Part shown: piece after piece, positions 304-30,927 of the stretch
How the letters are laid out: the number at the start of each line of letters is the position of its first letter
How positions within the stretch are numbered: the first letter of the stretch is position 1
IMG/VR virus record: IMGVR_UViG_3300023184_004954
Location: 1-64,000 of that record
DNA length: 64,000 nucleotides
Reading direction: 5' to 3' (one strand)
Source: a virus
Translations under genes and position numbers: made by a program
Notes under the pieces: model-generated
Database searches by the model: none
Told to the model about the DNA's origin: nothing
Seen by the model: the letters and a program-made list of their open reading frames with translations, nothing else

Positions 304-1647
304 TTTAAGTAATCTTTTAATTCTTTCAATATCTTCGTTAACTTTTTTACTTGTAACAGATTTTAAATCTTTTAATATTGGTATTTTATTTTTAATTGAT
401 TTCGCTGCTTTAGAAAGAGCTTTAAATGGGAGTTTAAGTAATTCTGTTGGGAATTCAGAATGATATTTTGATTTTTTATGTGAAAGTTCATTTCCTGTAA
501 ACTCTGAATAATTACTTGATTTTTTATGTGAAAGTTCATTTCCTGTAAACTCTGAATAATTACTTGATTTTTTATGTGAAAGAGAAGGTTTTTCTGAATA
601 ATTATTTGGTTTTTTATTTGTTAGTTCTTCAGAGTTATTTGTGGTTTCTTTATCTTCATAGCTTTTGATACTCAATTTTGAGCCTGTTATATTATATAAT
701 GAAATTGTTACATCAGAATTAGTTTCACCTAATTTTGTTCCTTTGGATACTCTATTTCCGCTTGAAACTATAGGGTTATCAATACCACAATATTCAAGAT
801 ATAGGATTTCTCTATCAACTATATGTTTAATTGATATTGGATTTTTACAAGACTTATTACGTGAATAATTTTCTATTACTCCGTCAATTGGACTTTTAAT
901 TATATGATTTTTATTTTGAGGTAATTTAAAATCATTTGAGGATTTTAATATATCTCTACCAAAATTTGAATAAACTTTTTCTTCTTTAACTGAATTTAAG
1001 GCATCTATTGTTCCTTTCATATCTGGGGCGATTTGTTGACTATCGGTATGACCTAACATTCCCCGAAATGTTGAATCACTTCCTGTTGATGCTCCCCCTG
1101 TTGATGACGCTGCGGTTACTGCTGCAGATGCTGCAGCTGTTGATGCAGTACCATCGGGTTCAGAAAGATTTTCAATCCCTTTAACAGGAGAACCTGATGT
1201 ATTTGAAACGTGAACGTGAGTATCGTGGCCTGGAAAACCAAATGTTAAAACAGCCTTTGGATTACCAACCTCTCTATTTTTAACATATCCCATTCTAGTT
1301 AATTCTGCGACAAATTTGTCTACATCACCTCTATTTGATGAACTAACTGATTTTCCATTAATTATTGCAATATCAACAGCATTACCTGAAGGATGTCTTG
1401 ATGGTAAACTTTTGTGTCCTGATACTGCGGTTGTAATATCAACATTAACCCCGGCATTTTTTGCGGCGGTTTGAACATCTTGTAATAAAGCAGGATTAAT
1501 AGCATCCTGAGATGGTTTACATCCACTAACAACAAAATCTTTAAAATTCACATTACTATAGTTGTCATATACTTGAGAATATTCCTTAATATTCATTAAT
1601 TTTTTGGTTCTACTAATCTCTTCGTTAATTCTTTTAAGATTTCTCAT
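301..1647 (-). CDS. M15-type peptidoglycan peptidase, tagged, with degenerate M23-like region
   Basis: A 448-aa protein. Residues 1-22 are a basic amphipathic tag ending NIKE, like tags on other proteins here. About residues 35-150 form an M15 (D-Ala-D-Ala carboxypeptidase / L-Ala-D-Glu endopeptidase) domain with zinc and catalytic motifs SGHKS, RHPSGNAVD and DTHVHV. After an Ala/Ser/Thr linker, a region around residues 230-320 resembles the beta-sheet core of M23 peptidases (PIDGV, ISIKH, V-S-x-G-T-K-L-G) but lacks the final HxH. A 16-residue repeat rich in SHKKSSNYSEF follows, and a basic C-terminus echoes the N-terminal tag (VNEDIERIKRLLK). Likely a cell-wall hydrolase, either endolysin or virion-borne. 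ATAAATAT at 1652-1659 puts the late motif 4 nt before the start. Confidence 0.8.
   Translation of the reverse strand: MRNLKRINEEISRTKKLMNIKEYSQVYDNYSNVNFKDFVVSGCKPSQDAINPALLQDVQTAAKNAGVNVDITTAVSGHKSLPSRHPSGNAVDIAIINGKSVSSSNRGDVDKFVAELTRMGYVKNREVGNPKAVLTFGFPGHDTHVHVSNTSGSPVKGIENLSEPDGTASTAAASAAVTAASSTGGASTGSDSTFRGMLGHTDSQQIAPDMKGTIDALNSVKEEKVYSNFGRDILKSSNDFKLPQNKNHIIKSPIDGVIENYSRNKSCKNPISIKHIVDREILYLEYCGIDNPIVSSGNRVSKGTKLGETNSDVTISLYNITGSKLSIKSYEDKETTNNSEELTNKKPNNYSEKPSLSHKKSSNYSEFTGNELSHKKSSNYSEFTGNELSHKKSKYHSEFPTELLKLPFKALSKAAKSIKNKIPILKDLKSVTSKKVNEDIERIKRLLK
470..583 (-). repeat. 48-bp tandem direct repeat inside the M15 peptidase gene
   Basis: Two perfect copies of a 48-bp unit (470-517 and 518-565) plus the first 17-18 bp of a third. 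The length is a multiple of three and encodes a 16-residue linker repeat, SHKKSSNYSEFTGNEL. Exact DNA identity points to recent slippage or duplication. Confidence 0.9.
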
Positions 1648-5709: not shown

Positions 5710-5742
5710 AACCCCCACTTCTAATAAAAGGTGGGGTTTTTT
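5710..5742 (+). terminator. Rho-independent terminator
   Basis: CCCCAC (5713-5718) pairs with GTGGGG (5731-5736), followed by TTTTTT. Its sequence recurs nearly unchanged before the next two genes. Confidence 0.85.
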
Positions 5743-5753
5743 AATTTTATGAG

Positions 5754-5761
5754 ATATTTAT
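5754..5761 (+). promoter_or_regulatory. Putative late promoter motif
   Basis: ATATTTAT, 16 nt before the ATG at 5778, within a block repeated before the genes at 6402 and 6960. Confidence 0.55.
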
Positions 5762-5777
5762 TTATAAAAATAATATT

Positions 5778-6305
5778 ATGGCAAGAATAATAAGATTAAC
5801 AGAATCAGATATGAGTCGTTTGGTTAAAAGAGTTATAAAAGAACAGAGGGATGAAGAAATAGCTCAAAAAATTGAGAATATTGTTGACTCTCCCAAAGTT
5901 GAAAATCATCTTGAACAAATTTTAAACAACATGGGAGAAGATGAAATTGAAGACATTAAACAAATGTTAACAAATTTGGGTATAGACGAAAATAGTAGTA
6001 TTCAAGATATACATAAAAGGGTTCTTCAGTATTCTGCATTAATGGGTTTACATGACTATGAATCAGATGGAGAAATGATTGAAGATTATGTAAATTCTAA
6101 TAAGGGAAAAACGGAAGAAAAAAATCCTAAACAAAAAGTTGCTGAAATTTTACATTCTATTGGTGCTGGAAATATTGCAGCTTGGGGTGGTGTTCCAGCG
6201 GCAATTGCAATTGGTTCTGCGACAGGAATGCCAATGGGGTTTGCAATAAGTTGGGGAGTAACAGGATTATTAATGGGGTTGGCACATTTAATGGAGAAAA
6301 AATAA
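5778..6305 (+). CDS. Tagged protein with C-terminal hydrophobic glycine-rich region
   Basis: A 175-aa protein. Residues 1-22 are the tag (MARIIRLTESDM, then RLVKRVIKE) ending at Glu22. Residues 23-120 are acidic and helical. Residues 128-170 are hydrophobic and Gly/Ala-rich (IGAGNIAAWGGVPAAIAIG, then ISWGVTGLLMGLAHL) and could form one or two membrane helices or a glycine zipper. The function is unknown; tag plus hydrophobic region suggests a packaged protein that inserts in a membrane after ejection (inference). It is the first of three consecutive genes with near-identical terminator, promoter and tag blocks. Confidence 0.75.
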   Translation: MARIIRLTESDMSRLVKRVIKEQRDEEIAQKIENIVDSPKVENHLEQILNNMGEDEIEDIKQMLTNLGIDENSSIQDIHKRVLQYSALMGLHDYESDGEMIEDYVNSNKGKTEEKNPKQKVAEILHSIGAGNIAAWGGVPAAIAIGSATGMPMGFAISWGVTGLLMGLAHLMEKK

Positions 6306-6333
6306 AATATTAATTAGAAAATAGATAATTTAT

Positions 6334-6367
6334 AAAACCCCACTTCTAATAAAAGGTGGGGTTTTTT
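6334..6367 (+). terminator. Rho-independent terminator (second copy)
   Basis: AAAACCCCAC (6334-6343) pairs with GTGGGGTTTT (6357-6366) and ends in T. The loop is identical to the terminator at 5710. Confidence 0.85.
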
Positions 6368-6378
6368 ATGAATATGAG

Positions 6379-6386
6379 ATATTTAT
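6379..6386 (+). promoter_or_regulatory. Putative late promoter motif
   Basis: ATATTTAT, 15 nt before the ATG at 6402. Confidence 0.55.
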
Positions 6387-6401
6387 TTATAAAATTATAT
6401 T

Positions 6402-6875
6402 ATGGCAAGAATAACAAGATTAACAGAATCAGATTTGAATAGATTGGTTAGAAGAGTAATAAAAGAAAATGAAAAAAGCCAAAGTTGTCCGGTAGTTGTT
6501 AATAAATTTTTAAGTAAAATTGAAAATTCTTTAACTCCGGAAGAACTTCAATTAGTGGTTTCTGAATATGAAAGACTTGGAAAATCAGGATTTAAACATA
6601 AGGTTGTTTCAACTTTACAAGATGAAACAATAACTGAAAGTAAAAGAGATGCTAAGTTAGAAAAGACAATAAACAAAATCGCACAGATTGTTGCGTTTAC
6701 AAGTGTCGGATTTTTAGGGGGCACTACAATTATTTTACCTTGTTTGGAAGGTATTGTTGATTTATCCCACGCACCTGAATGGGCGGTTCAAGCTTTTGGT
6801 GGTGCGTTGATTGCAAGTATTCCGTTGGCGTTAATAAGTTTCGTTACACTCGCATTAACAACAGAAGAAAAATAA
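6402..6875 (+). CDS. Tagged protein with two membrane segments
   Basis: A 157-aa protein. Residues 1-22 are the tag (MARITRLTESDL, then RLVRRVIKE). The middle is a short helical region, and the C-terminal half has two hydrophobic helices (about residues 92-115 and 127-150; VGFLGGTTIILPCLEG and FGGALIASIPLALISFVTL). Overall plan as in the gene at 5778, but the bodies are not obviously similar. It is probably a packaged membrane-active protein, inferred from tag and topology. Confidence 0.75.
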   Translation: MARITRLTESDLNRLVRRVIKENEKSQSCPVVVNKFLSKIENSLTPEELQLVVSEYERLGKSGFKHKVVSTLQDETITESKRDAKLEKTINKIAQIVAFTSVGFLGGTTIILPCLEGIVDLSHAPEWAVQAFGGALIASIPLALISFVTLALTTEEK

Positions 6876-6891
6876 AAACTTTAAAATAATT

Positions 6892-6924
6892 TAAACCCCC
6901 ATCTCTAATAAGGTGGGGTTTTTT
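6892..6924 (+). terminator. Rho-independent terminator (third copy)
   Basis: ACCCCCA followed by a short loop and GGTGGGGTTTTTT, closely matching the terminators at 5710 and 6334. Confidence 0.85.
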
Positions 6925-6935
6925 AATTTTATGAG

Positions 6936-6943
6936 ATATTTAT
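6936..6943 (+). promoter_or_regulatory. Putative late promoter motif
   Basis: ATATTTAT, 16 nt before the ATG at 6960. Confidence 0.55.
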
Positions 6944-6959
6944 TTATAAAATTAATATT

Positions 6960-7181
6960 ATGAGAAAAATTGTAAGATTAACAGAACGCGATATGAGTCG
7001 CTTAGTTAGAAAAGTAATTAAAGAACAAAATTTAATAAACGAAGGTGCGTGTATGTCTGAGAATGATACAGATGATTTAAAAACTGATATGGCACAATTA
7101 AAAAAATCAAATGCAGTTGTTGAATTACATGGTTCTTGTCTTTACATATCGGTTGGTCAAAAAAGTTATCTTATTGTTTAA
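6960..7181 (+). CDS. Small tagged protein
   Basis: A 73-aa protein: tag residues 1-22 (MRKIVRLTERDM, then RLVRKVIKE) followed by about 50 residues with two cysteines and a beta-prone C-terminus (VVELHGSCLYISVGQKSYLIV). Function unknown. It is the third member of the repeated cassette series, with a different and much smaller body, which shows that the tag is a module separate from the cargo. Confidence 0.7.
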   Translation: MRKIVRLTERDMSRLVRKVIKEQNLINEGACMSENDTDDLKTDMAQLKKSNAVVELHGSCLYISVGQKSYLIV

Positions 7182-7212: not shown

Positions 7213-8043
7213 ATGAAACATTTATTAAATAACTTATCTGAACAAGAAAAGAGTAATATTCTTGCTCAGCACAAAGGTGGAATTGAAATTGGAACTAAAA
7301 ATTTCAAAAAATTATCTGAAAGTAAACTTGGTAATGTAAAACCTTTAATTACAGAACAAAGTGAAGAAAGATATGTAAAGGCAGGGTTTAAAAAAGTAAA
7401 TGAAATAAATCTTCCTGATGGAAACTACATAGGAAACCCAGATAATGAAAATTATTATACATTAGCAAACTCTATGAATGTTAGATATGTTAATGATGTT
7501 TTGGTATATTCTAACGACGGTAAATTTACAGGATATTTACTCGAAGAATTATCACCATCAAGAAGTGGAATTAGTAATTTAGAACTAACTTTAACAGGTA
7601 AAAAATTTGGAGATTGGGGAATGAAACCCGGAGGGATATTTTTTAAGGATTCCGGTTATAAACCACAAGCTCAGAGCACTGAAACCAAAAAAAATCCCGA
7701 AATAACAAACAAAGTGGATACTGAGGGAATAAAAAATGTTTTACCTGAAATGATTTCAGGTCCTTCGTTCCCTGGAACTTATTCAGGTTATGTATTTGGA
7801 GGAACTTTTAATGGGACAAATTATTGGTGGGATTGTAATGGGGTTGACGGAATGATGGGTATTAGAGGAATGGCTGAAGGTAAAATTATATCTGAAAATA
7901 ATTCTATGTTAAATCAACAAACAAAGAAAGAAATCTCAGACGCAGACCCTAAAGGGGTTTGGGTTGGTTTTTATAATAAAACTAGTGGTAGTTTTGTAAT
8001 ATACACAACGACCGCAGGTAAACCTAAATGTGTTGGTTTTTAA
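7213..8043 (+). CDS. Hypothetical protein with LSEQEKSNILAQH N-terminus
   Basis: A 276-aa protein. The N-terminus (MKHLLNNLSEQEKSNILAQH) is a different short helical leader, and an I-T-E site follows at about residue 55 (PLITEQSEE). The body appears to contain two beta-rich modules with Gly/Tyr/Trp content; the C-terminal part (YWWDCNGVDGMMGIRGMAEG, then GVWVGFYNKTSG) looks like a compact extracellular-type domain. No family recognised. It follows the tagged genes without its own clear terminator or late motif and is therefore probably cotranscribed with the gene at 6960. Confidence 0.65.
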   Translation: MKHLLNNLSEQEKSNILAQHKGGIEIGTKNFKKLSESKLGNVKPLITEQSEERYVKAGFKKVNEINLPDGNYIGNPDNENYYTLANSMNVRYVNDVLVYSNDGKFTGYLLEELSPSRSGISNLELTLTGKKFGDWGMKPGGIFFKDSGYKPQAQSTETKKNPEITNKVDTEGIKNVLPEMISGPSFPGTYSGYVFGGTFNGTNYWWDCNGVDGMMGIRGMAEGKIISENNSMLNQQTKKEISDADPKGVWVGFYNKTSGSFVIYTTTAGKPKCVGF

Positions 8044-8060: not shown

Positions 8061-8092
8061 AAAGAAAAGGGGTTATTCAACCCCTTTTCTTT
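8061..8092. terminator. Bidirectional terminator
   Basis: AAAGAAAAGGGGTT (8061-8074) pairs perfectly with AACCCCTTTTCTTT (8079-8092) around ATTC. It separates the + gene ending at 8043 from the - strand clp gene and overlaps the clp stop codon. Confidence 0.85.
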
Positions 8093-10133
8093 TTCTTACA
8101 ACTTTCTTTGGTTTTTCTTCAACAACTAACTCCTCATTTATATTGACTTGTTCTTCTGAAACACTCAACATATAAGTTTTGTCCTCAAATACTTTACCAA
8201 GTAATACCTCCTCTGATAAGAAATCCTCAACTTTGTCTTGGATTGCTCTTTTGAGTGGTCTTGCACCATAAGCTTCATCATAACCAACCTTAGTGAGATA
8301 CTCAACCAACGTATCGTCATATTTGATAACATATTTCATATCCAACAAACGAGTCATAAGTTTATCCAACTCAATTCGGGTGATTTTCTTAATGTCATCA
8401 GGAGACAATGTGTTGAAAACAATTGTGTCGTCAATTCTGTTGATAAATTCAGGTGAGAAAAAGTTCTTCATCTCCTTCATCAACATTTGTTTTTTGGCTT
8501 CTTCATTGCTATACGCATTTGTGCTAAAACCAATACCTGTTCCGAAGTCCTGAAGTTTTTTAACTCCCAGATTTGATGTTAGGATAATCAAGGTGTTCTT
8601 AAAATTGATTTTTCTACCTAATCCATCTGTAACGTGTCCATCATCAAGTATTTGAAGGAGAACGGTAAACACATCTTTATGTGCCTTCTCAACCTCATCA
8701 AATAAGATTACGGAGTATGGTTTGTTTTTAACCTTTTCGGTTAATAATCCACCTTCTTCATATCCAACATAACCTGGAGGAGCCCCCACTAATTTAGATA
8801 TGGTGTGTTTCTCTTGGTATTCTGACATATCAACTCTGATAAGTGAATCCTCACTACCAAAAATCTCTTTTGCCAGTTGTTTTGCAAGATATGTCTTACC
8901 AACACCCGTTGAACCGAGGAATACAAAGGAACCGATTGGACGATTTGGGTCTTTAATACCTAATCTGTTTCTCTTGATGGATTTTGCAATCTTAATAACC
9001 GCATTGTTCTGTCCAATAACCTTATCAATTAGGGACGTATCAAGATTAATCAGAGCCTTATTATCATCAACATTCATCTTATTCACCGGAATATTAGTCA
9101 TATTTGAAACAACCTCATAAACATTCTCAACGGAGATTTTTTGTTTATCTTTTTGCATTTCTTCTTCAAATTTTTTCTTTTCTATTTCCAATTTGGTTAA
9201 TAGTTTTTTCTCTCTATCTCTTAGTTCTGCCGCTTTCTCGTAGTTCTGCCTTTTAACAACATCAACTTTTAAATCTTTTATTTCTGATGCCTGTCTTTTT
9301 AATTCTTCAATTGCTTCTGGAACTTTAAGTTCCGTTTGCATTCTTGCTCCAACTTCATCCAAAATATCAAAGGCTTTATCAGGAAAACCTCTATCTGTAA
9401 TGTATCTGTCAGCTAATTTAACACACGCCTCAATTACTTCATCGCTATATGTTACTTTATGATACATTTCATATTTTTCACGAACGCTTTTTAAGATTGT
9501 TATTGTTTCATCAATTGATGATGGCTCAACAATGATTTTTTGGAATCTACGTTCCAATGCTCCATCCTTTTCAATGTTCTTTCTGAACTCATTTAAGGTG
9601 GTTGCACCGATACATTGCAATTCTCCACGAGCAAGGGCGGGCTTAAAGATATTTGAACCATCCATTGACCCGGAGGAGTTTCCTGAACCCACCAAAGTAT
9701 GGATTTCATCAATAAAAATGATAATGTCAGGATTATTATTAAGTTCTTCCATAATAACCTTTAATCTCTCTTCAAATTGTCCTCTGTATTTTGTTCCAGC
9801 AACAACTGAAGTTAAATCTAACTCAACAATTCTTTTATCAACCAAATTTCTTGGGCAATCACCGGTATGGATTTTAATTGCTAATCCTTCAACAATTGCT
9901 GTCTTACCACAACCTGGGTCTCCAATGATAATTGGGTTATTTTTCTTTCTTCTAGATAAAATCTGTGCAATACGCAAGATTTCTTTTTCTCTACCAATAA
10001 CTGGGTCTAACTTACCTTGTTCGGCGAGTTTAATCAAATCCCGACTAAAATTATCTAATACGGGGGTATTACTATCTGATGAGGTTTTTTTCTTGCTCAT
10101 CATTTTGTCTTCATCATCCATTAATTCATTCAT
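8073..10133 (-). CDS. clpC: ClpC-like AAA+ unfoldase lacking the N domain
   Basis: A 686-aa Hsp100 ATPase. It has NBD1 (Walker A GDPGCGKT at 71-78, Walker B FIDEIHTLVG), a UVR-like coiled middle segment (NYEKAAELRDREKKLL), NBD2 (Walker A GSTGVGKT, Walker B ILFDEVEKAH), and the C-terminal small domain with GARPLKRAIQ. An IGF tripeptide around residue 534 fits the ClpP-binding loop of ClpA/ClpC/ClpX, absent from ClpB, so it probably docks on host ClpP. The usual N-terminal double Clp_N domain is missing and replaced by a short charged stretch, so adaptor and substrate choice must differ. The C-terminus is basic (KKVVRKRKG). It is divergent from hsp20, with a host-type promoter candidate at 10262-10294. 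Confidence 0.93.
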   Translation of the reverse strand: MNELMDDEDKMMSKKKTSSDSNTPVLDNFSRDLIKLAEQGKLDPVIGREKEILRIAQILSRRKKNNPIIIGDPGCGKTAIVEGLAIKIHTGDCPRNLVDKRIVELDLTSVVAGTKYRGQFEERLKVIMEELNNNPDIIIFIDEIHTLVGSGNSSGSMDGSNIFKPALARGELQCIGATTLNEFRKNIEKDGALERRFQKIIVEPSSIDETITILKSVREKYEMYHKVTYSDEVIEACVKLADRYITDRGFPDKAFDILDEVGARMQTELKVPEAIEELKRQASEIKDLKVDVVKRQNYEKAAELRDREKKLLTKLEIEKKKFEEEMQKDKQKISVENVYEVVSNMTNIPVNKMNVDDNKALINLDTSLIDKVIGQNNAVIKIAKSIKRNRLGIKDPNRPIGSFVFLGSTGVGKTYLAKQLAKEIFGSEDSLIRVDMSEYQEKHTISKLVGAPPGYVGYEEGGLLTEKVKNKPYSVILFDEVEKAHKDVFTVLLQILDDGHVTDGLGRKINFKNTLIILTSNLGVKKLQDFGTGIGFSTNAYSNEEAKKQMLMKEMKNFFSPEFINRIDDTIVFNTLSPDDIKKITRIELDKLMTRLLDMKYVIKYDDTLVEYLTKVGYDEAYGARPLKRAIQDKVEDFLSEEVLLGKVFEDKTYMLSVSEEQVNINEELVVEEKPKKVVRKRKGVE

Positions 10134-10300: not shown

Positions 10301-10687
10301 ATGATTTACTTGAATTCAAATTTTGACAAATTGTTTGATGGATTTTTCGGACAACCCACTTATAGTAATATGGTTGTTAAAAATTCTGATAAAGAACCTT
10401 ATGAGGTGAATTACACAAAAGACGGAGCTTATCTACTCTTTGATGTTCCAGGTTTTAATAAAACAAACCTGAAGGTTGAAATGGAAGGGGGTGTTCTTTA
10501 CATTGATGGTAAAAGAACATACAAATTAAATGGTGAAGACTCAGAGAAAGTTATTTCACAAAAATTCAAAATTGGACAAGATTATAACCCCGACAACATT
10601 GAAGCAACAATTGAGGATGGTATCCTGACAGTATTTGTTGCAAACTACAAAAAAACTGAAAAGAAAAAAAGGATAAGTTTATTGTAA
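10301..10687 (+). CDS. Small heat-shock protein (Hsp20 / alpha-crystallin)
   Basis: A 128-aa protein. Residues about 28-120 are an alpha-crystallin domain (YEVNYTKDGAYLLFDVPGF, LKVEMEGGVLYIDGKR, IEATIEDGILTVFV), and the C-terminal RISLL provides the I-x-I/L-type assembly motif. It is an ATP-independent holdase that keeps unfolded proteins soluble and could hand them to ClpC. Small Hsp20 proteins are known from other T4-like phages, for example cyanophages. It is divergent from the clp gene; the start is preceded by the A-rich tract typical of Bacteroidota, and a terminator follows. Confidence 0.93.
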   Translation: MIYLNSNFDKLFDGFFGQPTYSNMVVKNSDKEPYEVNYTKDGAYLLFDVPGFNKTNLKVEMEGGVLYIDGKRTYKLNGEDSEKVISQKFKIGQDYNPDNIEATIEDGILTVFVANYKKTEKKKRISLL

Positions 10688-13315: not shown

Positions 13316-13704
13316 ATTTAATTTATATTAATGGTTTAGGACCAAATTTTAAAGGAGATAACATATATGAATTTATTTTTTCGGATGAAATGGAAGTTTG
13401 GGGCGATAGTTGGGATAGTAAACCTTGTAATGGGTATCCACAACCACCTGAATTGAAATATATTAAAAAAGTAGGAGTTTTGAAGGACACTGATATTAAA
13501 TTAGAACTAATTCAAAACTCCGATTATTTTTCTATGATAGATGCAACTGATGGTGTTGTTGCTTTGGGATGGGAAGAGGATGAAGATGTTAAAAAACCAA
13601 GAATGGTATTTAGATTTAACGACGAAGAACAAAAAATAAAAGATTTATTATACGAAAAGGATTTAATCCTTGAGTTTGAAAAAAAAGTTGTATATGAAAA
13701 GTAA
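13312..13704 (+). CDS. Hypothetical protein of the head operon
   Basis: A 130-aa protein (MNLIYINGLGPNFKGDN at the start), acidic, mixed beta/alpha, with Trp-rich segments (VWGDSWDSKPCNGYP). No domain recognised. Coupled by a 4-nt overlap to the gene at 12089 and by an 11-nt overlap to the next gene, placing it firmly in the head operon. Confidence 0.65.
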   Translation: MNLIYINGLGPNFKGDNIYEFIFSDEMEVWGDSWDSKPCNGYPQPPELKYIKKVGVLKDTDIKLELIQNSDYFSMIDATDGVVALGWEEDEDVKKPRMVFRFNDEEQKIKDLLYEKDLILEFEKKVVYEK

Positions 13705-14371
13705 TAAAAAAGCATTAGAGTTGGTAGAAAAAGGTTTATCAACTAAAACAATTATAAAACTAACCGAAGCTCAAATTGATGTATTACATTCAAGATTATA
13801 TAATGAGCAAGTTACCCAAACAAATAAACCTGTTTATAATGTAAAAGGAAGTGGTGGTAATGTATCAGTACCAATGCCAAAAGGGGCGTCTGTTACAAAA
13901 ACACCAACAGGAGATGTTGTGGTTACACCAAATGAAGGTGAAATGAAAGAGGGTAAAGTTAAAAAAGGTGAACCAAATCCTTGGGCTATATGCCACGCAC
14001 AAGTTGGACCTAAAAAGTCAAGAAAATTTGAAAGATGTGTAAGAGAAGTTAAAAAAAGTTTGAAAGAAGGAAAAAATCCCGTATCTTTGTTTTTAGAAAA
14101 CGAAATTATGAGAATAGTAGAAAAACATATTCCACCAAGAATAACTAAAGGTGATTTGATTAAATATCTATCAGAAGATGTTGAAACAGCGCCATCAAAA
14201 CCAAAAACAAATCCTACAACAAAACCAGGAACAAAGCCAAGCACAAAACCAAGACCTAAACATCCGGGACAAAATCCTAACCCTGGTGAAAACCCAGCTC
14301 CAAAAGCAATTTCACCTGAAAAGGCAAAAGATGAAGTAATTAACGCAATAATGAAATTATTAGAAAAATGA
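13694..14371 (+). CDS. Head-operon protein with Cys motif and Pro/Lys-rich linker
   Basis: A 225-aa protein. The N-terminus contains IIKLTEAQIDVLHSRLYNE, similar in pattern to the tags of other proteins here. A central segment WAICHAQVGPKKSRKFERC has two cysteines with basic residues, perhaps a small metal or nucleic-acid site. A Lys/Pro/Thr-rich linker (TKPGTKPSTKPRPKHPG) precedes a short C-terminal helix. ATG 13694 is preferred over 13670 because it shortens the overlap with the upstream gene. Function unknown. Confidence 0.65.
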   Translation: MKSNKKALELVEKGLSTKTIIKLTEAQIDVLHSRLYNEQVTQTNKPVYNVKGSGGNVSVPMPKGASVTKTPTGDVVVTPNEGEMKEGKVKKGEPNPWAICHAQVGPKKSRKFERCVREVKKSLKEGKNPVSLFLENEIMRIVEKHIPPRITKGDLIKYLSEDVETAPSKPKTNPTTKPGTKPSTKPRPKHPGQNPNPGENPAPKAISPEKAKDEVINAIMKLLEK

Positions 14372-17534: not shown

Positions 17535-19391
17535 ATGGCTGAAAATAAAAAAGAAAATATGACGATTTGGCAACGGTTAGGTCAAACATTTGGTCCCAAT
17601 TCCTTATTAGGACAAGATTACCCTTCGTTTAGTCTTGATAAGAAAGAATTATTAAGAACCAAAAGTAAGGAAGAATACGAAAAAGAAAAACTTCAAGCAC
17701 AACAAACTTTCTATTTAGGACAACAATGGGCTAAAGTAGAAAACAATTTATACTCTCAAGCAGTTTATTATGAACCATCAAGGTTATCTTCCACATATGA
17801 TTATGAAAGTATGGAATATACACCAGAAATTTCAGCAGCTTTAGACATTTATGCAGAAGAGTCAACAACAGTAAATGAAGATGGGTTTATGTTGCAGATT
17901 TATTCAGAATCAAAAAGAATTAAATCAGTATTGGCAGATTTATTTAATAATGTTTTAGATATTAATACCAATTTACCAATGTGGACAAGAAATACTTGTA
18001 AATTTGGTGATAATTTCGTTTATCTTAAACTAGACCCTGAAAAGGGGGTTGTTGGTTGTCAACAATTACCAAATATTGAGATTGAAAGAAAAGAGGTTGG
18101 TATGGGAGATAGAAGTCCTGTTGATTTAGGAAAAACAGAGGCAAAAAAAGCATTAACTTTTACTTGGAAAAATAAAGCAATAACATTCCAATCTTGGGAA
18201 ATCGCTCACTTTAGGTTATTAGGTGATGATAGAAAACTTCCTTATGGTACTTCAATGTTAGAAAAGGCAAGAAGAATTTGGAAACAATTATTACTATCTG
18301 AAGATGCAATGTTAATTTATAGAACATCAAGAGCACCTGAAAGAAGAATCTTTAAAGTATTTGTTGGAAATATGAATGATGAGGATGTTGAACCTTATGT
18401 TAATAGGGTTGCCGACAAGTTCAAAAGACAACAAGTTGTTGATAAAAATACAGGTAATGTTGATATGAGGTTTAATCAGATGGCTGTTGACCAAGATTAC
18501 TTTGTTCCCGTTAGAGACCCAGCGGCACCAAGTCCAATTGAGACTTTGCCAGGTGCAACAAACTTATCAGAGATTGCGGATATTGAATATATTCAAAAGA
18601 AACTATTAACCGCATTAAGAGTTCCGAAAGCCTTCTTAGGATTTGAAGAAGTTGTTGGAGATGGTAAAAATTTATCATTACAGGATATTCGTTTCGCAAG
18701 AACAATCAATAGAATACAAAAAAGTATGATACAAGAGCTAAATAAAGTGGCAATCATACATTTATTTTTATTAGGTTTTGAAGAGGAAATATCAAACTTT
18801 ACAATAGGGCTAACAAACCCATCTACACAAGCAGATTTGTTAAAAATTGATGTTTATAAAGAAAAAATTCTACTTTATAAAGATTTAGTTTCTGACCCAG
18901 GAAATGGTATTCAAGCAGTATCATCTACTTGGGCTAAAAAACATATCTTCGGATTCTCTGATGAAGAAATAAAAACAGACTTATTACAACAAAGATTTGA
19001 AAGAGCCATCGGTGAAGAATTGAAGGCAACCGCAACAATAATAACTAAAACAGGAATATTTGATACCATAGATAAATTATATGGTAATAATGCCAGCGGT
19101 GGTACACAAACAGGTGGAGCAACACCATCAGGAGAAGAAACCGCACTACCATCATTTGGTGGAGAAAGTGGGGGAGCACCACCACCAGCCCCTCCAGGAG
19201 GAGAAGGGGGAGAACCTCCAGCAGAAGCGCCGCCAGCAGGGGGAGAAGTTACACCTGAATCTAAAATAGATAAATTAAATATTTTGGTGGAAAATAGGTT
19301 TATTGAAGGTGCACAAATTTTAGAATTTAAAACAGGACAAAATTCTTTAGATGAAATGGATTTAGAATTAGATAAGTTACTAAACTCGTAA
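17535..19391 (+). CDS. Portal protein (gp20-like)
   Basis: A 618-aa protein matching T4-like portals in size and content: an N-terminal domain with YTPEISAALDIYAEES, a central clip/stem region with RIWKQLLLSEDAMLIYRTSRAPERRIF, and KLLTALRVPKAFLGFEE. It forms the dodecameric DNA gate at the capsid vertex. The C-terminus carries an extra Gly/Pro/Ala/Glu-rich linker of about 50 residues followed by a short acidic helix, not typical of T4 gp20. Confidence 0.92.
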   Translation: MAENKKENMTIWQRLGQTFGPNSLLGQDYPSFSLDKKELLRTKSKEEYEKEKLQAQQTFYLGQQWAKVENNLYSQAVYYEPSRLSSTYDYESMEYTPEISAALDIYAEESTTVNEDGFMLQIYSESKRIKSVLADLFNNVLDINTNLPMWTRNTCKFGDNFVYLKLDPEKGVVGCQQLPNIEIERKEVGMGDRSPVDLGKTEAKKALTFTWKNKAITFQSWEIAHFRLLGDDRKLPYGTSMLEKARRIWKQLLLSEDAMLIYRTSRAPERRIFKVFVGNMNDEDVEPYVNRVADKFKRQQVVDKNTGNVDMRFNQMAVDQDYFVPVRDPAAPSPIETLPGATNLSEIADIEYIQKKLLTALRVPKAFLGFEEVVGDGKNLSLQDIRFARTINRIQKSMIQELNKVAIIHLFLLGFEEEISNFTIGLTNPSTQADLLKIDVYKEKILLYKDLVSDPGNGIQAVSSTWAKKHIFGFSDEEIKTDLLQQRFERAIGEELKATATIITKTGIFDTIDKLYGNNASGGTQTGGATPSGEETALPSFGGESGGAPPPAPPGGEGGEPPAEAPPAGGEVTPESKIDKLNILVENRFIEGAQILEFKTGQNSLDEMDLELDKLLNS

Positions 19392-19413: not shown

Positions 19414-20118
19414 ATGACATTTGGACAAATAAAATCTATAATTGAAAATCAATTAATAGAATCATATACAGACGGTAAAGAATTTAAAAAATCTTTACAA
19501 GGATTCAAACAAGATGTTTTGAATAATAACACCATATCTAAGATTTATTCTCTTTATGATGATTTATCAACACCACAAGGTTTATCTGAACAAGACGCAT
19601 CAGAATTCCTAAATGAAGGTATTTCTTTACTTCAAACTTTAATTACTAAAATAAAGATTCCAAAAGGCCCTATTACGGAGATTAAAAACAATTATCAATC
19701 AATAGATGAGTTGGTATATGTTACAGGTAAAAACATTCAGTTAACTGACAGATTAAATAATAAAAAACAAATAATTAAAACTCTAACTCAATCAAAAAAA
19801 GAAATTAAAGAATCTGTAAATATTCCTTTAAGTTCTATGGTTAAGATTGGTAATCAAAAAATTAATGAGTATTTAGAAAATATGGATGAATCCTCTAAAA
19901 AAGAATTATTTGATATCATCAAAGAAGATACAAAATCTTTAAAGATGAAATTTCAAACTCTTAAAGAAGACGCTTCAACAAAATTAAATATCTTAATTGA
20001 AAATGAAAAAGACAATGAGGTTAAATCTAAATTAACAGAAACTATTTCAAAAATAAAATCTGAGAAGTTTGACCAAATGAATTATTTGAAATTGAAAGAA
20101 TTAGTTGAGTCTCTTTAA
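19414..20118 (+). CDS. Putative head core protein
   Basis: A 234-aa helical, lysine/glutamate-rich protein between portal and protease, the position of T4 gp67/gp68 core proteins. The N-terminus IKSIIENQLIESYTD contains two I/L-x-E protease-like sites. No sequence family recognised, so the core role is inferred from position and composition. Confidence 0.6.
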   Translation: MTFGQIKSIIENQLIESYTDGKEFKKSLQGFKQDVLNNNTISKIYSLYDDLSTPQGLSEQDASEFLNEGISLLQTLITKIKIPKGPITEIKNNYQSIDELVYVTGKNIQLTDRLNNKKQIIKTLTQSKKEIKESVNIPLSSMVKIGNQKINEYLENMDESSKKELFDIIKEDTKSLKMKFQTLKEDASTKLNILIENEKDNEVKSKLTETISKIKSEKFDQMNYLKLKELVESL

Positions 20119-20849: not shown

Positions 20850-21557
20850 ATGAAAAAACTAAGATTATTAGAAGCAAATGAGGTTGGTTACGGACTTTTA
20901 GTTGAGATGGACGCAGGTTATGTTTCACCAAAAGACGAAATAAATGCAAAAATACTTCAAGAATCCACTAAAATGGATTATAGAAATCCTTTTGAATTTT
21001 ACGCCGTATTACAAAAATATGACACCGCAAATAGAAACGGTAGATTTTATCCCGAAAGGATATTAAAGAGAGAAAGTGAAAAATATAAGCAAACAATCGC
21101 CAAAGGTTTATCAACATCAGAACTTAATCACCCTGAATCATCTTTAATTGATTTGGATAGAGTATCTCATATAATCACAGAGATTTGGTGGGATAAAAAT
21201 ATTCTAATGGGAAAGTTAAAATTATTAACCTCACCAGGATTTCACGAAAGAGGAATAGTTTCAACAAAGGGTGACCAAGCGGCAAATCTTATGAGACAAG
21301 GTGTTACTTTAGGTATATCCTCAAGAGGTGTTGGCTCACTTAAAAAGATTGGAGAAAAAAATGAGGTTCAAGATGACTTTGAATTAATTTGTTTTGACTT
21401 AGTTTCCTCTCCGTCTACACCAGGAGCATATTTGTTTACCGATGCAAATGATAGAGACAAATATGAAGAAAATTTAGAAGAAGAAAAAAAATCAAGTGGT
21501 GGAGTAGAGAAATCAGTTGACTTAATGAAAAAATTATCCGATTATTTAGAAAAATAA
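20850..21557 (+). CDS. Prohead protease (gp21-like)
   Basis: A 235-aa serine protease of the phage prohead (herpes assemblin-like) fold. Candidate catalytic residues are His in ELNHPESS (about residue 94) and Ser in LGISSRGVG (about residue 158), and the following FELICFDLVSSPSTPGA strand fits the family. It cleaves scaffold, capsid and internal proteins after Glu during head maturation. Its own N-terminus (KLRLLE|AN) offers a self-cleavage site. It precedes the scaffold and capsid genes as in T4. Confidence 0.9.
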   Translation: MKKLRLLEANEVGYGLLVEMDAGYVSPKDEINAKILQESTKMDYRNPFEFYAVLQKYDTANRNGRFYPERILKRESEKYKQTIAKGLSTSELNHPESSLIDLDRVSHIITEIWWDKNILMGKLKLLTSPGFHERGIVSTKGDQAANLMRQGVTLGISSRGVGSLKKIGEKNEVQDDFELICFDLVSSPSTPGAYLFTDANDRDKYEENLEEEKKSSGGVEKSVDLMKKLSDYLEK

Positions 21558-21955: not shown

Positions 21956-23467
21956 ATGCAAAAAAATAAATCATTAGTTGAAGAGGCACTTATTCAAATG
22001 AAACAAGTTGAAGAAGCTATCTCTGAAAATGCAAAAGGAATACTTGCTTCTACTATGAAGGAAGAAATCAATCAATTAGTAAAAGAGTCTCTTTCTGAAC
22101 AAGATGATGAAGAAGACCAAACAGATGTAGACGTAGATACTGACACAGACAATGTTGATGTTGATATGGATGCAGATAATGAAGATGAAGTTGAAATGGA
22201 TATGGACGCAGACACTGATACAGATGATGTTGATGTAGACGCTGATGTTGACATGGATATGGATTCTCAACCACCAATTGATTTAACTGACGCATCTGAT
22301 GAAGAAATTCTTAAGGTGTTCAAAGCAATGGGCGAGAATGACGGTATTATTGTTAAAAAGAATGGCTCTGATGTCACTCTTAAAGATAGTAATAACGATT
22401 CTGAATACATTGTAAGATTAGGTGAATCTATGGATGAATTAAATCAAGGAATGATGGAATACTCTGAAGAAGAAGATGACGACCAAGTTCAAGGTGTAAT
22501 AGACGCAATTTTTTCTAATAACAATTCTAAAAAAGACTCTTATAGAGATTCTGATGATGAAGAAATGGACGAAGAAGAAGGAGTTATGTACGAAATTGAA
22601 ATGGACGAAGAATCCGATGAAGAAGAAATGGATGAAGAAGAAACAATCTATGAAATTGAAATGGATGAAGAATCTGACGAAGAAGAATTAGATGAAGAAT
22701 CTGATGAAGAAGAATTAGATGAAGAATCCGATGAAGATGAAATGGATGAAGAAGATTCTTGGAGTATGGATGAAGCATACAGTCGCAAAAAACTCAAAAA
22801 AGGTATCAAACCAAAAGGTGTCGGAATAGGTAAACCAAAATTTGAATACAAGAAAACAACCGGTGGTTTCAAAGAAAGTATGAAACAAGGTGCAAAATCT
22901 GTAGGAACTGGTAAACCAAAATTTGACTACAAAAAAGGTGAGAACATGGGTGGTACTAATAAAATGGTTAAAAAAGTTGAAACTAAAGAAGCCGCAAGAA
23001 CTATGGGTATGGGCCCAAGAAAAGGTGGTGGACTTAGAAAAGGCATTACCCCCAATAGAAACCTTAAAGAGGAAATTCTACAACAAGAAGTTAGTATGTT
23101 GAGACAGAAAAATGAAGAATATAGAAAAGCTCTGAATACTTTCAGAGAAAAGCTAAACGAAGTTGCAATTTTTAATTCCAACTTAGCTTACGCCACAAGA
23201 TTGTTCACAGAACATTCAACAACTAAAAAAGAAAAAATAAACATTCTTAGAAGATTTGATGATGTTGAAACATTAAAGGAATCTAAAAGCCTTTATAAAT
23301 CAGTAAAAGACGAATTATCTAAGATTGAAAGTAAACCAATGAACGAATCAGTTGAAAACAAATTGAATAAAAATGTTTCTACAGGTTCTTCAACAACTCT
23401 TATTGAATCAAAAACTTATGAAAACCCTCAATTTATGAGAATTAAGGATTTGATGTCTAAGATGTAA
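21956..23467 (+). CDS. Prohead scaffold/core protein (gp22-like)
   Basis: A 503-aa protein directly before the capsid gene, the position of T4 gp22. An N-terminal helix (EEINQLVKESLSE) ends in an L-S-E site and is followed by a long Asp/Val-rich repeat (DVDVDTDTDNVDVDMDAD, residues about 58-105) and Glu/Asp/Ser repeats (DEESDEEEMDEEE). Two basic repeats, GKPKFEYKK and GKPKFDYKK, follow around residues 290-325, then a helical C-terminus ending FMRIKDLMSKM. An acidic core with a helical capsid-binding tail is what a scaffold should look like; homology to gp22 cannot be shown by eye. Confidence 0.72.
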   Translation: MQKNKSLVEEALIQMKQVEEAISENAKGILASTMKEEINQLVKESLSEQDDEEDQTDVDVDTDTDNVDVDMDADNEDEVEMDMDADTDTDDVDVDADVDMDMDSQPPIDLTDASDEEILKVFKAMGENDGIIVKKNGSDVTLKDSNNDSEYIVRLGESMDELNQGMMEYSEEEDDDQVQGVIDAIFSNNNSKKDSYRDSDDEEMDEEEGVMYEIEMDEESDEEEMDEEETIYEIEMDEESDEEELDEESDEEELDEESDEDEMDEEDSWSMDEAYSRKKLKKGIKPKGVGIGKPKFEYKKTTGGFKESMKQGAKSVGTGKPKFDYKKGENMGGTNKMVKKVETKEAARTMGMGPRKGGGLRKGITPNRNLKEEILQQEVSMLRQKNEEYRKALNTFREKLNEVAIFNSNLAYATRLFTEHSTTKKEKINILRRFDDVETLKESKSLYKSVKDELSKIESKPMNESVENKLNKNVSTGSSTTLIESKTYENPQFMRIKDLMSKM

Positions 23468-23500: not shown

Positions 23501-25330
23501 ATGGGAGCATTATTAGAAAGCGGTCTTGTTGGTAACATCGGGTTAAAACACCTTAAAGTTATTAAAGAAGACACTATTAACAAATGGGACAAATTAGGGT
23601 TCCTTGAAGGTCTTAAAGGCCACCTAAAAGAAAACGTAGCTCAGCTATATGAAAACCAAGCATCATTTTTAATCAATGAAGCATCATCAACATCTGATAC
23701 AGGTGCATTTGAAACAGTTGTGTTTCCAATAGTTCGTAGAGTATTCTCTAAACTTTTGGCTAATGACATCGTTTCTGTACAAGCTATGAACTTACCAATC
23801 GGTAAATTGTTCTTCTTCGTACCTAACATTCAGTCTTATGAAGTTGATACCGCAACAAATGGTCAACATTATTCTCCATACGGAGCACCTGGTGCAACAA
23901 ATGGTCAAACACCAGATTCAGGTTATTTACCAGCAAATACAGGTAAAAATCTTTATGACAGATTTTATGAAGGTACTGAACCAGCTTTAGACCCTCCAGG
24001 TTTGTTTGATTATTCTAAAGGACAATTCTCAGCAATTACCTCAACTTCTTCTACAAGCCCAACTAAAACTTCTACAGCAGTTTGGAATGGTGCTACTGGA
24101 AACTTAATAGCTTCAGGATATCCTGCATCAACAGAATTCAGAAAAGTATTGATAACTATGTCAGGTTTTGCATCTGATGGTGCTGGTAAATTAATCGGTC
24201 CTGATGGTCAAGTAATGGATAACGAAGCTTTCTTAACTGATTTGACAATTCAGGCAACTGCTACAGGTTGTTTCTCAGGAAAAACTAGTGGTAATTTATT
24301 ATTTAGAGTAGTAACTCAAAGATATGGTAGAGGTATTGTTCAATACGGTACTAATAACCAATCAACAAGTTTTGCATCAACAGGTAATGGTGGTTCTTTT
24401 GATAACATATGTGATGCCGACGGAATTATATATCTTGAAGTTGATTTACAAGTACCTTGTACTGTAGGTTCTAACTCTCTTGATGGTTATTCTGGTACTA
24501 CAACCTCAGGTCCAGGTAGTTCAGCACCAAACGCTGATTTCGTATCAACTTACAGAGTTTACAAAACACTTGAGTTTGAAGATAAAATTGGTGAGGTTTC
24601 TTTTGACCTTCAATCTGTAACAGTTTCTGTTACTGAAAGAAAATTAAGAGCTCAATGGTCTCCTGAGATGGCTCAAGACGTTGCTGCATTCCACAACATT
24701 GATGCTGAAGCTGAATTAACAGCTTTATTGTCTGAACAAGTTGCTGCGGAAATTGACCGTGAAATCCTTCGTGATTTACGTAAAGGCGCCGCTTGGAACT
24801 TACGTTGGGATTACAATGGTTGGAAAAGACTAGGAAATCAAGCAGTTCCATACACTCAAAAAGATTGGAACCAAACTTTGATTACCGCAATCAACCAAAT
24901 TTCAGCTCAAATCCATAAGTCTACCTTAAGAGGTGGTGCTAACTGGATAGTTGTTTCTTCTGAAATCAGTGCTATTATGGATGATTTGGAGTATTTCCAC
25001 GTATCAAACGCAGCACCTGAACAAGACCAATACAACATGGGTATTGAAAGAGTAGGTACTTTGGCTGGTCGTTACCAAGTTTATCGTGACCCTTACTTCC
25101 CTGCTAACCAAGTGTTAATGGGACACAAAGGAACGTCATTGTTAGATACAGGTTACATCTACGCACCGTACGTACCTCTACAATTAACTCCAACTATGTA
25201 CAATCCGTTCAATTTTACTCCAATTAAGGGTATTATGACGAGATACGCAAAAAAGATGGTCAACAATCGCTTTTACGGAAGAATTACTGTAGATGGTGTT
25301 AGAACATTTGATTTAAGAGAATTGAGATAA
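23501..25330 (+). CDS. Major capsid protein (gp23-like)
   Basis: A 609-aa protein. The propeptide contains NKWDKLGFLEGL and LYENQASFLINE, and cleavage is predicted after Glu60 (LINE|ASST), matching the T4 gp23 site (FLTE|A). Then IVRRVFSKLLANDIVSVQAMNLPIGKLF matches T4 VRR...GVQPMN...G. Residues 90-400 hold a long Gly/Thr/Ser-rich insertion domain, and the C-terminal HK97-fold part includes AELTALLSEQVAAEIDREIL and VYRDPYFPANQVLMGHKG. It also has VIKE at residues 20-23. It forms the capsid shell. A strong terminator follows. Confidence 0.95.
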   Translation: MGALLESGLVGNIGLKHLKVIKEDTINKWDKLGFLEGLKGHLKENVAQLYENQASFLINEASSTSDTGAFETVVFPIVRRVFSKLLANDIVSVQAMNLPIGKLFFFVPNIQSYEVDTATNGQHYSPYGAPGATNGQTPDSGYLPANTGKNLYDRFYEGTEPALDPPGLFDYSKGQFSAITSTSSTSPTKTSTAVWNGATGNLIASGYPASTEFRKVLITMSGFASDGAGKLIGPDGQVMDNEAFLTDLTIQATATGCFSGKTSGNLLFRVVTQRYGRGIVQYGTNNQSTSFASTGNGGSFDNICDADGIIYLEVDLQVPCTVGSNSLDGYSGTTTSGPGSSAPNADFVSTYRVYKTLEFEDKIGEVSFDLQSVTVSVTERKLRAQWSPEMAQDVAAFHNIDAEAELTALLSEQVAAEIDREILRDLRKGAAWNLRWDYNGWKRLGNQAVPYTQKDWNQTLITAINQISAQIHKSTLRGGANWIVVSSEISAIMDDLEYFHVSNAAPEQDQYNMGIERVGTLAGRYQVYRDPYFPANQVLMGHKGTSLLDTGYIYAPYVPLQLTPTMYNPFNFTPIKGIMTRYAKKMVNNRFYGRITVDGVRTFDLRELR

Positions 25331-27538: not shown

Positions 27539-28558
27539 ATGAGAAGTTTAATTAAACAAATCCTTAAAGAAGAATTAGATAGGAGGGAAATAACTTTATT
27601 TAATGAATTAAATAAGGAAAAAAACCAATTAAAGATTAAGAGTAACATTATTGATTATATTAAAAAAATAAGCGTTTATTTGGGGTTAGACCCTAAGATG
27701 GCTCAATACTATTATCTACTTTGGAAAGCCAATTACAGAAAAGAAGGTGGATACAATAAAATATCTCCTGAGGAATTTGTTGGAGCTAAAGATTTACCAC
27801 AAAGAACCATAAGTAATCCACAATCAGGTAATTTTGTTAGAGCTAAAGCTCCATTCAAGGGTAGTAATTTGGAAGGACGTTGGGGGACAGATAAAAATGG
27901 TGTTGATTATTATGTAGTGATTTCATATAGGTGGTATCCCGTTTATTTATTCAAACAAGATAAATGGTATAGAACTTCCAATACTTATTCATCATCAACA
28001 TCAAGACAAATGAATAATGCAGACCCGATAGAATGGGATGAAAATGTTGAACGTGATTTTACTTGGGTTACTAAAGATGAAATGGATACTTTAATGTACG
28101 GAACCGCAACTTATGATGATATAATGAAGGGTAAGGTTAAAAATATTGTTAAGAAAAAAGAAGATTTTATTAATAAAAAACCTAAATTTGCTAAGAATTG
28201 GGGTTGGGGGGATAATTATACACCAATGAAAGCAAGATTCAAAGTTACAGATATTAGAGATGAGGGGGATAAGGCAGTTGTTGATGTAACCATTGATGAT
28301 GCTGGAACAAGGGAACGTCAACCAACAAATGGTCTAGTAACTAATAGAATGGTGCCATCTAATGGGGGATATTTAAAAGGTGAAGTAGAAGGAGTTACCA
28401 AAGAAAAAGTTGAGAGTACGATTAAAAGTAATATAACTCGTAATTTTAAAGACTATGTTGGTAAATTTCCAAATTATAAGAATGATACTTATGACTTTGA
28501 ATCGACTCCTGAGAAACACGCAATTAAATTTAACTTCATACACTCAAAAGAGATTTAA
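27539..28558 (+). CDS. Hypothetical tagged protein
   Basis: A 339-aa protein. The N-terminus MRSLIKQILKE|ELD is a short basic tag ending L-K-E at residue 11. The body has a Tyr/Trp-rich segment (YYVVISYRWYPVYLFKQDKWY), reminiscent of wall- or carbohydrate-binding modules, and a C-terminal beta-rich region (MKARFKVTDIRDEGDKAVVD). No family recognised. If packaged, it could be an ejected or virion-associated protein. Confidence 0.68.
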   Translation: MRSLIKQILKEELDRREITLFNELNKEKNQLKIKSNIIDYIKKISVYLGLDPKMAQYYYLLWKANYRKEGGYNKISPEEFVGAKDLPQRTISNPQSGNFVRAKAPFKGSNLEGRWGTDKNGVDYYVVISYRWYPVYLFKQDKWYRTSNTYSSSTSRQMNNADPIEWDENVERDFTWVTKDEMDTLMYGTATYDDIMKGKVKNIVKKKEDFINKKPKFAKNWGWGDNYTPMKARFKVTDIRDEGDKAVVDVTIDDAGTRERQPTNGLVTNRMVPSNGGYLKGEVEGVTKEKVESTIKSNITRNFKDYVGKFPNYKNDTYDFESTPEKHAIKFNFIHSKEI

Positions 28559-28854: not shown

Positions 28855-29541
28855 ATGAATAAAAAATCAATAAGGGAAGCGACTGGTTCAGGAAGTGCAG
28901 GACATTTTAAAAATCCTATAAATTTTGCTCCATTAGATTGGGGTAAGGAACCGTTGGACCCATTTACTATTCCTGTTTCAAAGTATCTAAATCCTGATTT
29001 AGCTTATGATAGTTATGATGGTGAGATGGAGATATCTGCCGCTAAGGCAAGTAAGATTGAAAGGATGACAAAAAAACTTGCCAGAAAAGCTTCTGAAACT
29101 TTTGGACAAAATGATGATGATGGAAACCCATTAAATGGTTTTATCCCTATGGGAGATTCTACTCCTGGTACTCCGGGTAAAGAATCTGATTTGGTTAAAG
29201 AAGATTTGAGAGTTTGGTTTGGTACAAAAAAGAAATCTAAAGGTAGTTCTCAACCAAAAGGGCCTTGGGTTAATATTTGTCGTAAAAAAGAGGGTGGTGG
29301 TCATCCCCCTTGTGGTAGACCTGATGCATCAGATAAAGGATACCCGAAATGTAGGGCGGCTGGGGTCGCATCTAAAATGACAGACTCCCAAAAGAAAAGT
29401 GCTTGTCAGCAAAAAAGAAATGCTGAAAAAACACATAGTAAAACAGGTACAGGAAACAAACCTAAAATGACTCATTATGAGCCAAAAAATGAATCTCTTA
29501 AAGAATTAATTAAAAAAGTTTTAAGAGAAGATTTCAGTTAA
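28855..29541 (+). CDS. DUF5872-like protein with C-terminal tag
   Basis: A 228-aa protein. The middle contains KEDLRVWFGTKKKSKG, GPWVNICRKK and two further cysteine clusters (HPPCGRP, YPKCRAAG), matching the small DUF5872-like module (LRxWFG...GGW...C...C) seen in large phages and giant viruses; function unknown. Remarkably, the tag-like helix is at the C-terminus (ESLKELIKKVLREDFS). The start at 28855 is chosen because the open frame further upstream overlaps the promoter motifs. Confidence 0.68.
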   Translation: MNKKSIREATGSGSAGHFKNPINFAPLDWGKEPLDPFTIPVSKYLNPDLAYDSYDGEMEISAAKASKIERMTKKLARKASETFGQNDDDGNPLNGFIPMGDSTPGTPGKESDLVKEDLRVWFGTKKKSKGSSQPKGPWVNICRKKEGGGHPPCGRPDASDKGYPKCRAAGVASKMTDSQKKSACQQKRNAEKTHSKTGTGNKPKMTHYEPKNESLKELIKKVLREDFS

Positions 29542-30474: not shown

Positions 30475-30927
30475 TTATTTTTTCTTCCATTTTCCACCTA
30501 AACTTTTGTAGTGTTTAGCTGCGCCTCCATTACAATAGGCGCTTGGACAAACTTTATATTTGGTTTTAGCCCACGATAATGATTTTTTCCATAAGGCCGG
30601 ATTGGTTGGTACATTTTTCTTTTGTTTTTCAGACTCTGACATTATACTATCTTGATGAGTGGTTTCATCTTTTTTTGTTTCATTCATCATAAAGTCAAAT
30701 ACTTGGTCAATATTCTCCTTTGCGGATGAAATGTGGTCATCAGCCCAATCGTGTCCGTTCATTAGAATCTCGTCCACCATATGGGGGTCTAATTGCAATA
30801 ATAGTTCACATTGTCTTTTCATTTGTTCCAAATTACTAAAAAACATATAATTTGGAGATTCTTCTTCTTTAATAACCTTTTTAACAAGGCGATTTAAGTC
30901 TGATTCTGTTAGTTTTATTATTCTCAT
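30475..30927 (-). CDS. Tagged protein with Cys/Trp-rich C-terminal module
   Basis: A 150-aa protein. Residues 1-21 are the tag (MRIIKLTESDLNRLVKKVIKE). The middle is acidic and helical. The C-terminal 40 residues (ALWKKSLSWAKTKYKVCPSA, YCNGGAAKHYKSLGGKWKKK) form a compact basic module with two cysteines and aromatic residues, a type seen repeatedly in large phage genomes and probably nucleic-acid or surface binding (inference). Last gene of a two-gene unit with 30932. Confidence 0.75.
   Translation of the reverse strand: MRIIKLTESDLNRLVKKVIKEEESPNYMFFSNLEQMKRQCELLLQLDPHMVDEILMNGHDWADDHISSAKENIDQVFDFMMNETKKDETTHQDSIMSESEKQKKNVPTNPALWKKSLSWAKTKYKVCPSAYCNGGAAKHYKSLGGKWKKK

Follow-up and report, generated by a model that had tools for sequence, protein, structure and literature searches.

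The recurrent N-terminal peptides encoded by a 64,000-nucleotide stretch of viral DNA (the window, part of a 67-kb virus record) are probably T4-type capsid-targeting tags that occur in several classes, which is the best explanation we found for them. By sequence, the principal tag (tag A) is modular: it has a sharp edge at a terminal (I/L/V)-x-E motif (h-x-E), is exchanged for other tags at that edge, occurs alongside a prohead protease and a capsid-protein site with the same motif, and is nearly restricted to phages that bear the protease gp21. Together with a matching motif in the scaffold, these features support in part a sequence-only reading of the same DNA, which had proposed that the tag is a capsid address.

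The window covers part of the genome of a Bacteroidetes jumbo phage of the bS21 type and includes T4-like gp17, gp20, gp21 and gp23, encoded as follows (slashes within motifs mark the boundary after Glu):

15736-17496: terminase (gp17, T4-like).
17535..19391, forward strand: portal gp20 (phrog_213, E 7.8e-65).
20115-20300, reverse strand: ribosomal protein S21 (bS21) gene (PF01165), between the portal and protease genes.
20850..21557, forward strand: prohead protease, gp21-type (phrog_207, E 1.1e-41).
21956..23467, forward strand: putative acidic scaffold, whose homologues keep LVKE/S, LSE/Q, LKE/S, MNE/S and LIE/S.
23501..25330, forward strand: major capsid protein gp23, with predicted maturation site LINE60/A61.

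Because the bS21 gene lies on the reverse strand inside the TerL-portal-protease-MCP region, we assign the window to the lineage of bS21 Bacteroidetes jumbo phages, with genomes of up to 331 kb, in which this gene is likewise reversed between portal and protease and whose gene order the window matches (Chen et al., 2022; PMC9723584). A search of that study's main text, covering N-terminal, capsid-targeting and internal-protein wording, turned up no mention of tags. A contig of 317 kb (G034) is mostly collinear with the window, among annotated cultured phages a Microcystis phage and Flavobacterium phage immuto come closest in their capsid protein, and the large tag-bearing phages are predicted to infect Bacteroidetes. 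Genes for a ClpA/ClpB-like AAA protein (8073-10133), an Hsp20 (10301-10687), an FKBP-type isomerase (30012-30437) and a class II tRNA-synthetase-like protein (26669-27511) lie close to head and tail genes of the window. The protein of 13691-14371, which adjoins the terminase, contains a tag-like KLTEAQIDVLHSRLYNEQ about 20 residues in from its start that may be a related core element.

Tag A is most conspicuous between positions 5,710 and 7,181, where, as the sequence-only reading had described and as direct reading and alignments bear out, genes 5778, 6402 and 6960 share a hairpin, a GATATTTATTTATAA element, a leader and a 22-codon tag in front of bodies that are unrelated to each other:

5713..5736, forward strand: terminator-like hairpin of block 1, by folding energy.
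5753..5767, forward strand: GATATTTATTTATAA promoter-like element of block 1.
5778..5843, forward strand: tag A of gene 5778, 22 codons, ending VIKE/Q (alignment).
5844..6305, forward strand: body of gene 5778, a helical part and a Gly/Ala-rich hydrophobic hairpin.
6338..6361, forward strand: terminator-like hairpin of block 2.
6378..6392, forward strand: GATATTTATTTATAA element of block 2.
6402..6467, forward strand: tag A of gene 6402, ending VIKE/N (alignment).
6468..6875, forward strand: body of gene 6402, with two C-terminal hydrophobic segments.
6897..6918, forward strand: terminator-like hairpin of block 3.
6935..6949, forward strand: GATATTTATTTATAA element of block 3.
6960..7025, forward strand: tag A of gene 6960, ending VIKE/Q (alignment).
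7026..7181, forward strand: body of gene 6960, an orphan of 51 aa.

From the hairpin through the 22 codons, column identity between the blocks averages 86% across 174 DNA columns, and their tags are 68-72% identical to the first; all three hairpins have the form CCCCAC..GTGGGG-T6, with folding energies of -12.6 to -15.2 kcal/mol. The tag codons differ silently among the blocks, indicating that it is the protein sequence that is kept. Homologues of the 5778 body are tagged in two other loci (L047 and L090) and lack a recognisable tag in a third (L395), and a search of viral contigs for relatives of the 6402 body confirmed none. At the corresponding site of the collinear contig G034, the genes that flank the array stand approximately 100 bp apart and the array is missing, so the array is an island that was either gained or lost; relatives of the protein of the following gene, 7213, occur at 216-218 kb of that contig, together with a tag A gene.

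The tag is not confined to this array. A profile search of viral contigs returned at least 443 confirmed tag stretches, and in the loci that were fetched the tag was N-terminal in 238 of 242 unique matches, with 235 tagged bodies falling into 146 similarity groups. Per contig of 268-326 kb there are 6-11 tag A genes; two control phages have none. Its presence on hundreds of other phage proteins excludes chance likeness; a tblastn search of cultured phages with the tag consensus found no match, and a literature search for the motif found none.

The edge of the tag was mapped on proteins picked solely by RLTExDL, the first half of the tag, and made nonredundant by body (n=189). Within this set, Glu17 is kept in 187 proteins, position 15 is I, L or V in 186, and position 16 is free. 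Q, E, S, N and D are frequent directly after Glu17, and conservation drops to near background within three to four residues. Asp replaces Glu17 in a single protein, whereas position 6 mixes Asp and Glu. Third codon positions within the tag are more variable than first and second positions, with several codons used per residue, which indicates that the peptide and not the DNA is under conservation.

This terminal h-x-E is the motif after which gp21 of T4 cleaves (L/I-x-E), and in T4 a tag with Asp as its last residue is blocked in processing and still targeted (PMC9026906). In the capsid protein, the same motif makes up the predicted maturation site LINE/A, which is kept in nearly all gp23 homologues of the lineage and aligns with IVSE/A of immuto; we infer that this site and the h-x-E sites of the scaffold are processed by the protease.

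Tag A is one of several tags in these phages. An unbiased N-terminal motif search over the tag A loci brought out three others, D (MKIIITESQxxxL...), B (ITEEEKxRIxxMH...YLxEQ) and the less frequent C, and three further N-termini in the window are tags or possible tags:

1582..1647, reverse strand: tag-class-C-like N-terminus INEEISRTKKLMNIKE of the M23-like protein 301-1647.
7213..7356, forward strand: tag class B of gene 7213-8043 (LSEQEK..I..H ... PLITE/Q), found on unrelated bodies in other phages.
27539..27571, forward strand: possible short tag MRSLIKQILKE of gene 27539, seen in one relative (L021).

Gene 7213 was absent from the earlier list of tagged genes and adds a third tag class. 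The relatedness once claimed for other N-termini fared unevenly: protein 301-1647 is tagged, but with a class other than A; the N-terminus of 27539 is tag-like in one relative and lacks that character in two others; and that of 3638 shows no conservation as a tag, with just a short MSKKILIE in one relative.

Homologous bodies can carry different tags. Two loci, L056 (MKKIIRLTESDLTRLVKKVIAE/TGTDSK...) and L138 (...LEKRLVENVITE/TGTDSK...), encode proteins that are 96% identical past the joint and unlike before it, also at the DNA level. Members of the GYDD body family begin with tag A, tag D or a short MNIRRIIKEELLKE, those of the GVP family with one of three unlike N-termini, and exchanges between tags A and B on homologous bodies occur as well. 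In these homologous bodies the joint lies right after h-x-E, the pattern that functionally equivalent tags would give; the swaps come from a targeted test, a systematic junction scan of all homologous pairs being noisy. Searches for the GVP and GYDD families in cultured phages returned none. In a second lineage, whose members are probably phages of Prevotella from rumen or gut, the tag (RLTESDLHRIVKESVNRILKE) is four residues, or one helical turn, longer and is followed by unrelated bodies; it again ends in h-x-E, with Glu in 49 of 53, and gp21 was found in six of the lineage's seven contigs of at least 200 kb (one match being weak). In the rumen-type jumbo phages G160 (C1:265989-267662), G166 and G164, the gp21 match is split by a gap of about 0.4-1.1 kb within a single open frame of 386-609 aa, presumably an inserted domain or an intein.

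The distribution of tag A follows that of the protease. As had been anticipated, the profile search placed the tag on many unrelated proteins, mostly in gp21-bearing phages: among the 11 tagged contigs that reach 265 kb or more, gp21 was found in 10, and the exception (G007) has tag matches close to those of G006 and looks like a shorter copy of it. Among tagged fragments of 100-200 kb, 7 of 17 include gp21. Loci selected for gp21 contained 19 tag A genes in 748 kb, compared with 0 in 860 kb of HK97-type loci with flavophage capsids; the loci share ancestry, so that this comparison falls short of a formal test, and the association of gp21 with the tag could reflect shared lineage instead of mechanism. 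A per-genome scan for shared N-termini, which recovered the IPII/IPIII tag of T4 as a positive control, also detected the tags of G034 and the window and a FDLKKFLVENKLTxNSKxLKE family in immuto. It returned nothing comparable from crAss-like genomes, HK97-type genomes or RM378, which has gp21 and no shared tags. A separate crAss-like control scan gave just phi14:2 itself.

In 257 billion bases of bacterial and archaeal genomes, a single tag A match was confirmed. A related tag is present in 4 of 120 Prevotella-group bins, three of them with no gp21 match; the fourth encodes gp21 in a T4-like head module on a different contig from the tag. Tags in genomes that lack a prohead protease, which the sequence-only reading had named as evidence against its proposal, are thus rare and not common, yet these three bins provide examples. 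Two of these tags are chromosomal, and in Prevotella chromosomes the tag RLTESDLHRIVKESV (L291:10001-11079 and L405:8694-10528) lies beside transketolase genes and transposase genes, the latter presumably ISXO2-like, and such chromosomal tags may be relics of phage genes. A 286-kb contig of a Prevotella bin (L407, G111 contig 1) carries a T4-like module of gp21, scaffold and MCP genes related to that of the window.

Two core proteins of the window offer a view of the tag outside the variable genes:

28855..28878, forward strand: short N-terminal MNKKSIRE/ATG of gene 28855, with I-x-E/A in most homologues.
29494..29529, forward strand: C-terminal tag-like helix SLKELIKKVLRE of core gene 28855-29541 (homologue alignment).
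30865..30927, reverse strand: tag A of core gene 30475-30927 (alignment of homologues).

The N-terminus of 30475, previously noted as a related tag, is a true fourth copy of tag A and sits in the structural region. The tag and its Glu21 are present in 13 of 13 aligned homologues, and in about 15 related loci the family maps to the structural region, with inserts possible between tag and body. Its structure model, of modest confidence (mean pLDDT 65), matched no PDB entry at E 0.001; that of 5778 (pLDDT 37) is unusable. Most 30475 homologues end in a Cys module, PSAYANGYAVQVCKGK...C, part of which the window copy has lost, and related PSAY modules occur behind another N-terminus in immuto and in cultured cyanophages and podoviruses. 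The C-terminal tag once read in 28855 likewise holds as a conserved helix: members of this family of Cys-rich core proteins keep the final Glu, and homologues in L262 and L266 end in a complete tag A (...ITEQ). Here, unlike at the N-terminus, cleavage behind that Glu would not detach the tag from its protein. The 28855 family thus suggests that the tag helix is a docking element and that cleavage matters where the helix is N-terminal; in T4, Alt is processed at both ends (PMC9026906).

The same family is one argument for an unlikely alternative, in which the tag is an uncleaved docking helix for the tail, the baseplate or a replication or transcription complex, with Glu serving as a helix cap or contact. 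Besides the C-terminal module with its retained Glu, the position of tagged core genes 28855 and 30475 among structural genes and the likeness of some bodies to wall enzymes agree with this alternative, which is countered by the near-absence of Asp or Gln in place of Glu, by a boundary motif that is the same as in the capsid protein and scaffold, and by the use of one end motif across tags of different class and length.

The bodies that follow the tags are mostly anonymous: roughly 90 of 100 tag A proteins match nothing in Pfam, and the remainder include peptidoglycan-binding (PG_binding_1), L,D-transpeptidase (YkuD), nucleoside deoxyribosyltransferase, GNAT acetyltransferase and sigma-70 region 4 domains. 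Among the bodies behind tags B and D, domains of the M23, LysM, lysozyme, OmpA and SET types occur. Such mixed functions would fit injected effectors without proving that role. Of the cargo described by the sequence-only reading as wall- and membrane-active, an M23-like domain in 301-1647 and hydrophobic hairpins in two of the three focal bodies were recovered; membrane activity as a general trait was not, with membrane segments in 16 of 222 tagged bodies and 150 of 1,717 comparison proteins. Basic charge was rejected as a general trait too, since tagged bodies are not enriched in it. The hairpins of 5778 and 6402 and the wall-enzyme domains (M23, LysM, PG_binding_1, YkuD, lysozyme-like) could also indicate that the tag is a helix that targets late wall- and membrane-active proteins to the envelope, but we consider this improbable in the extreme, given the lack of membrane enrichment, the lack of an envelope domain in most bodies, and a charged helix that is no signal peptide and whose fixed h-x-E end would be left without a reason.

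Regulatory elements accompany many of the tags. A ATATTTAT element precedes 117 of 222 tagged genes and 315 of 1,717 comparison genes, an enrichment, and lies mostly 14-18 nt from the start codon of the tagged genes. Together with the phage-encoded bS21, this element could mean that the tag is a late-expression leader, serving for example initiation on ribosomes with phage S21, with the peptide a by-product. We give this very little credence: selection acts on amino acids, with silent positions varying and several codons per residue, ATATTTAT also precedes untagged genes, and a leader needs no 22 codons with a sharp protein edge. The terminator, proposed as a general part of the cassette, is instead local to the window, where the unit of stem-loop and promoter occurs three times; hairpins precede 22 of 222 tagged and 133 of 1,717 comparison genes, with no enrichment. 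T4-type phages possess PeSL cassettes, in which a stem-loop and promoter are repeated between small variable genes, and the array in the window resembles these mobile regulatory cassettes, but its unit includes a coding tag and the stem-loop is not general at tagged genes. Least credible of all is that the tag is a recently duplicated recombination cassette or homology patch with no protein function, since, despite three near-identical tandem blocks that are missing at the collinear site, the peptide is kept with silent change over hundreds of diverged phage proteins and in the core 30475 family.

Under the preferred reading, that of capsid-targeting tags, the amphipathic tag helix would dock a protein to the prohead core or scaffold during head assembly, the gp21-like protease would then remove the tag by cutting after the terminal (I/L/V)-x-E, and the body would remain in the head with the DNA. 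The cargo might then be ejected into the host, where it could act in takeover or counter-defence. The tag and its promoter-like element would constitute a movable front end, attachable to any gene, and these phages would draw on four or more tag classes (A, B, D and others) that can stand in for one another. A literature search for virion proteomics or N-terminal peptides of tagged proteins, including those of immuto, found none. We are evenly divided on a broader version, in which unrelated tag classes with a prohead-protease end form a general, interchangeable address code that loads the head with more than 100 fast-changing orphan families, including sigma-region-4, acetyltransferase, SET, deoxyribosyltransferase and wall-enzyme bodies, for genome-linked delivery.

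If this reading is true, the tag marks anonymous genes of environmental jumbo phages as virion-borne and probably injected at the start of infection, the set in which counter-defence and takeover factors are expected; all three internal proteins of T4 inhibit type IV restriction enzymes (PMC12373910). It would also provide a sequence rule for spotting virion cargo in metagenomes and new signals with which to package proteins into large capsids, and would extend the capsid-targeting principle of T4 to distant phages with several exchangeable tags.

Among known systems, the tags most likely work like the capsid-targeting sequences (CTSs) of T4, which head the internal proteins IPI, IPII, IPIII and Alt and are processed by gp21 (PMC9026906, PMC3012670, PMC12373910). 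In both cases, a short N-terminal peptide is shared by unrelated proteins of one phage and ends in L/I-x-E with the body next, the phage encodes a gp21-type protease and gp23, and the accessory bodies are many and variable. However, T4 CTSs have 10-19 residues, whereas tag A has 21-22 and the other classes about 8 to 48, and apart from the h-x-E end there is no similarity to MKTYQEFIAE; we therefore group these tags as CTS-like by their working, and not as T4 CTSs. They also differ in having several classes per genome, tag swapping, far more cargo families and one C-terminal family, and their packaging is predicted from sequence. In giant phage SPN3US, two head proteins have N-terminal propeptides of 20 and 24 residues that are removed after A-x-E, with Val preferred at P4 (PMC10052503): these resemble the tags in position, length and a short protease motif ending in Glu, but the motif here is I/L-x-E, and no description of the SPN3US propeptides presents them as a common tag that moves among numerous unrelated bodies.
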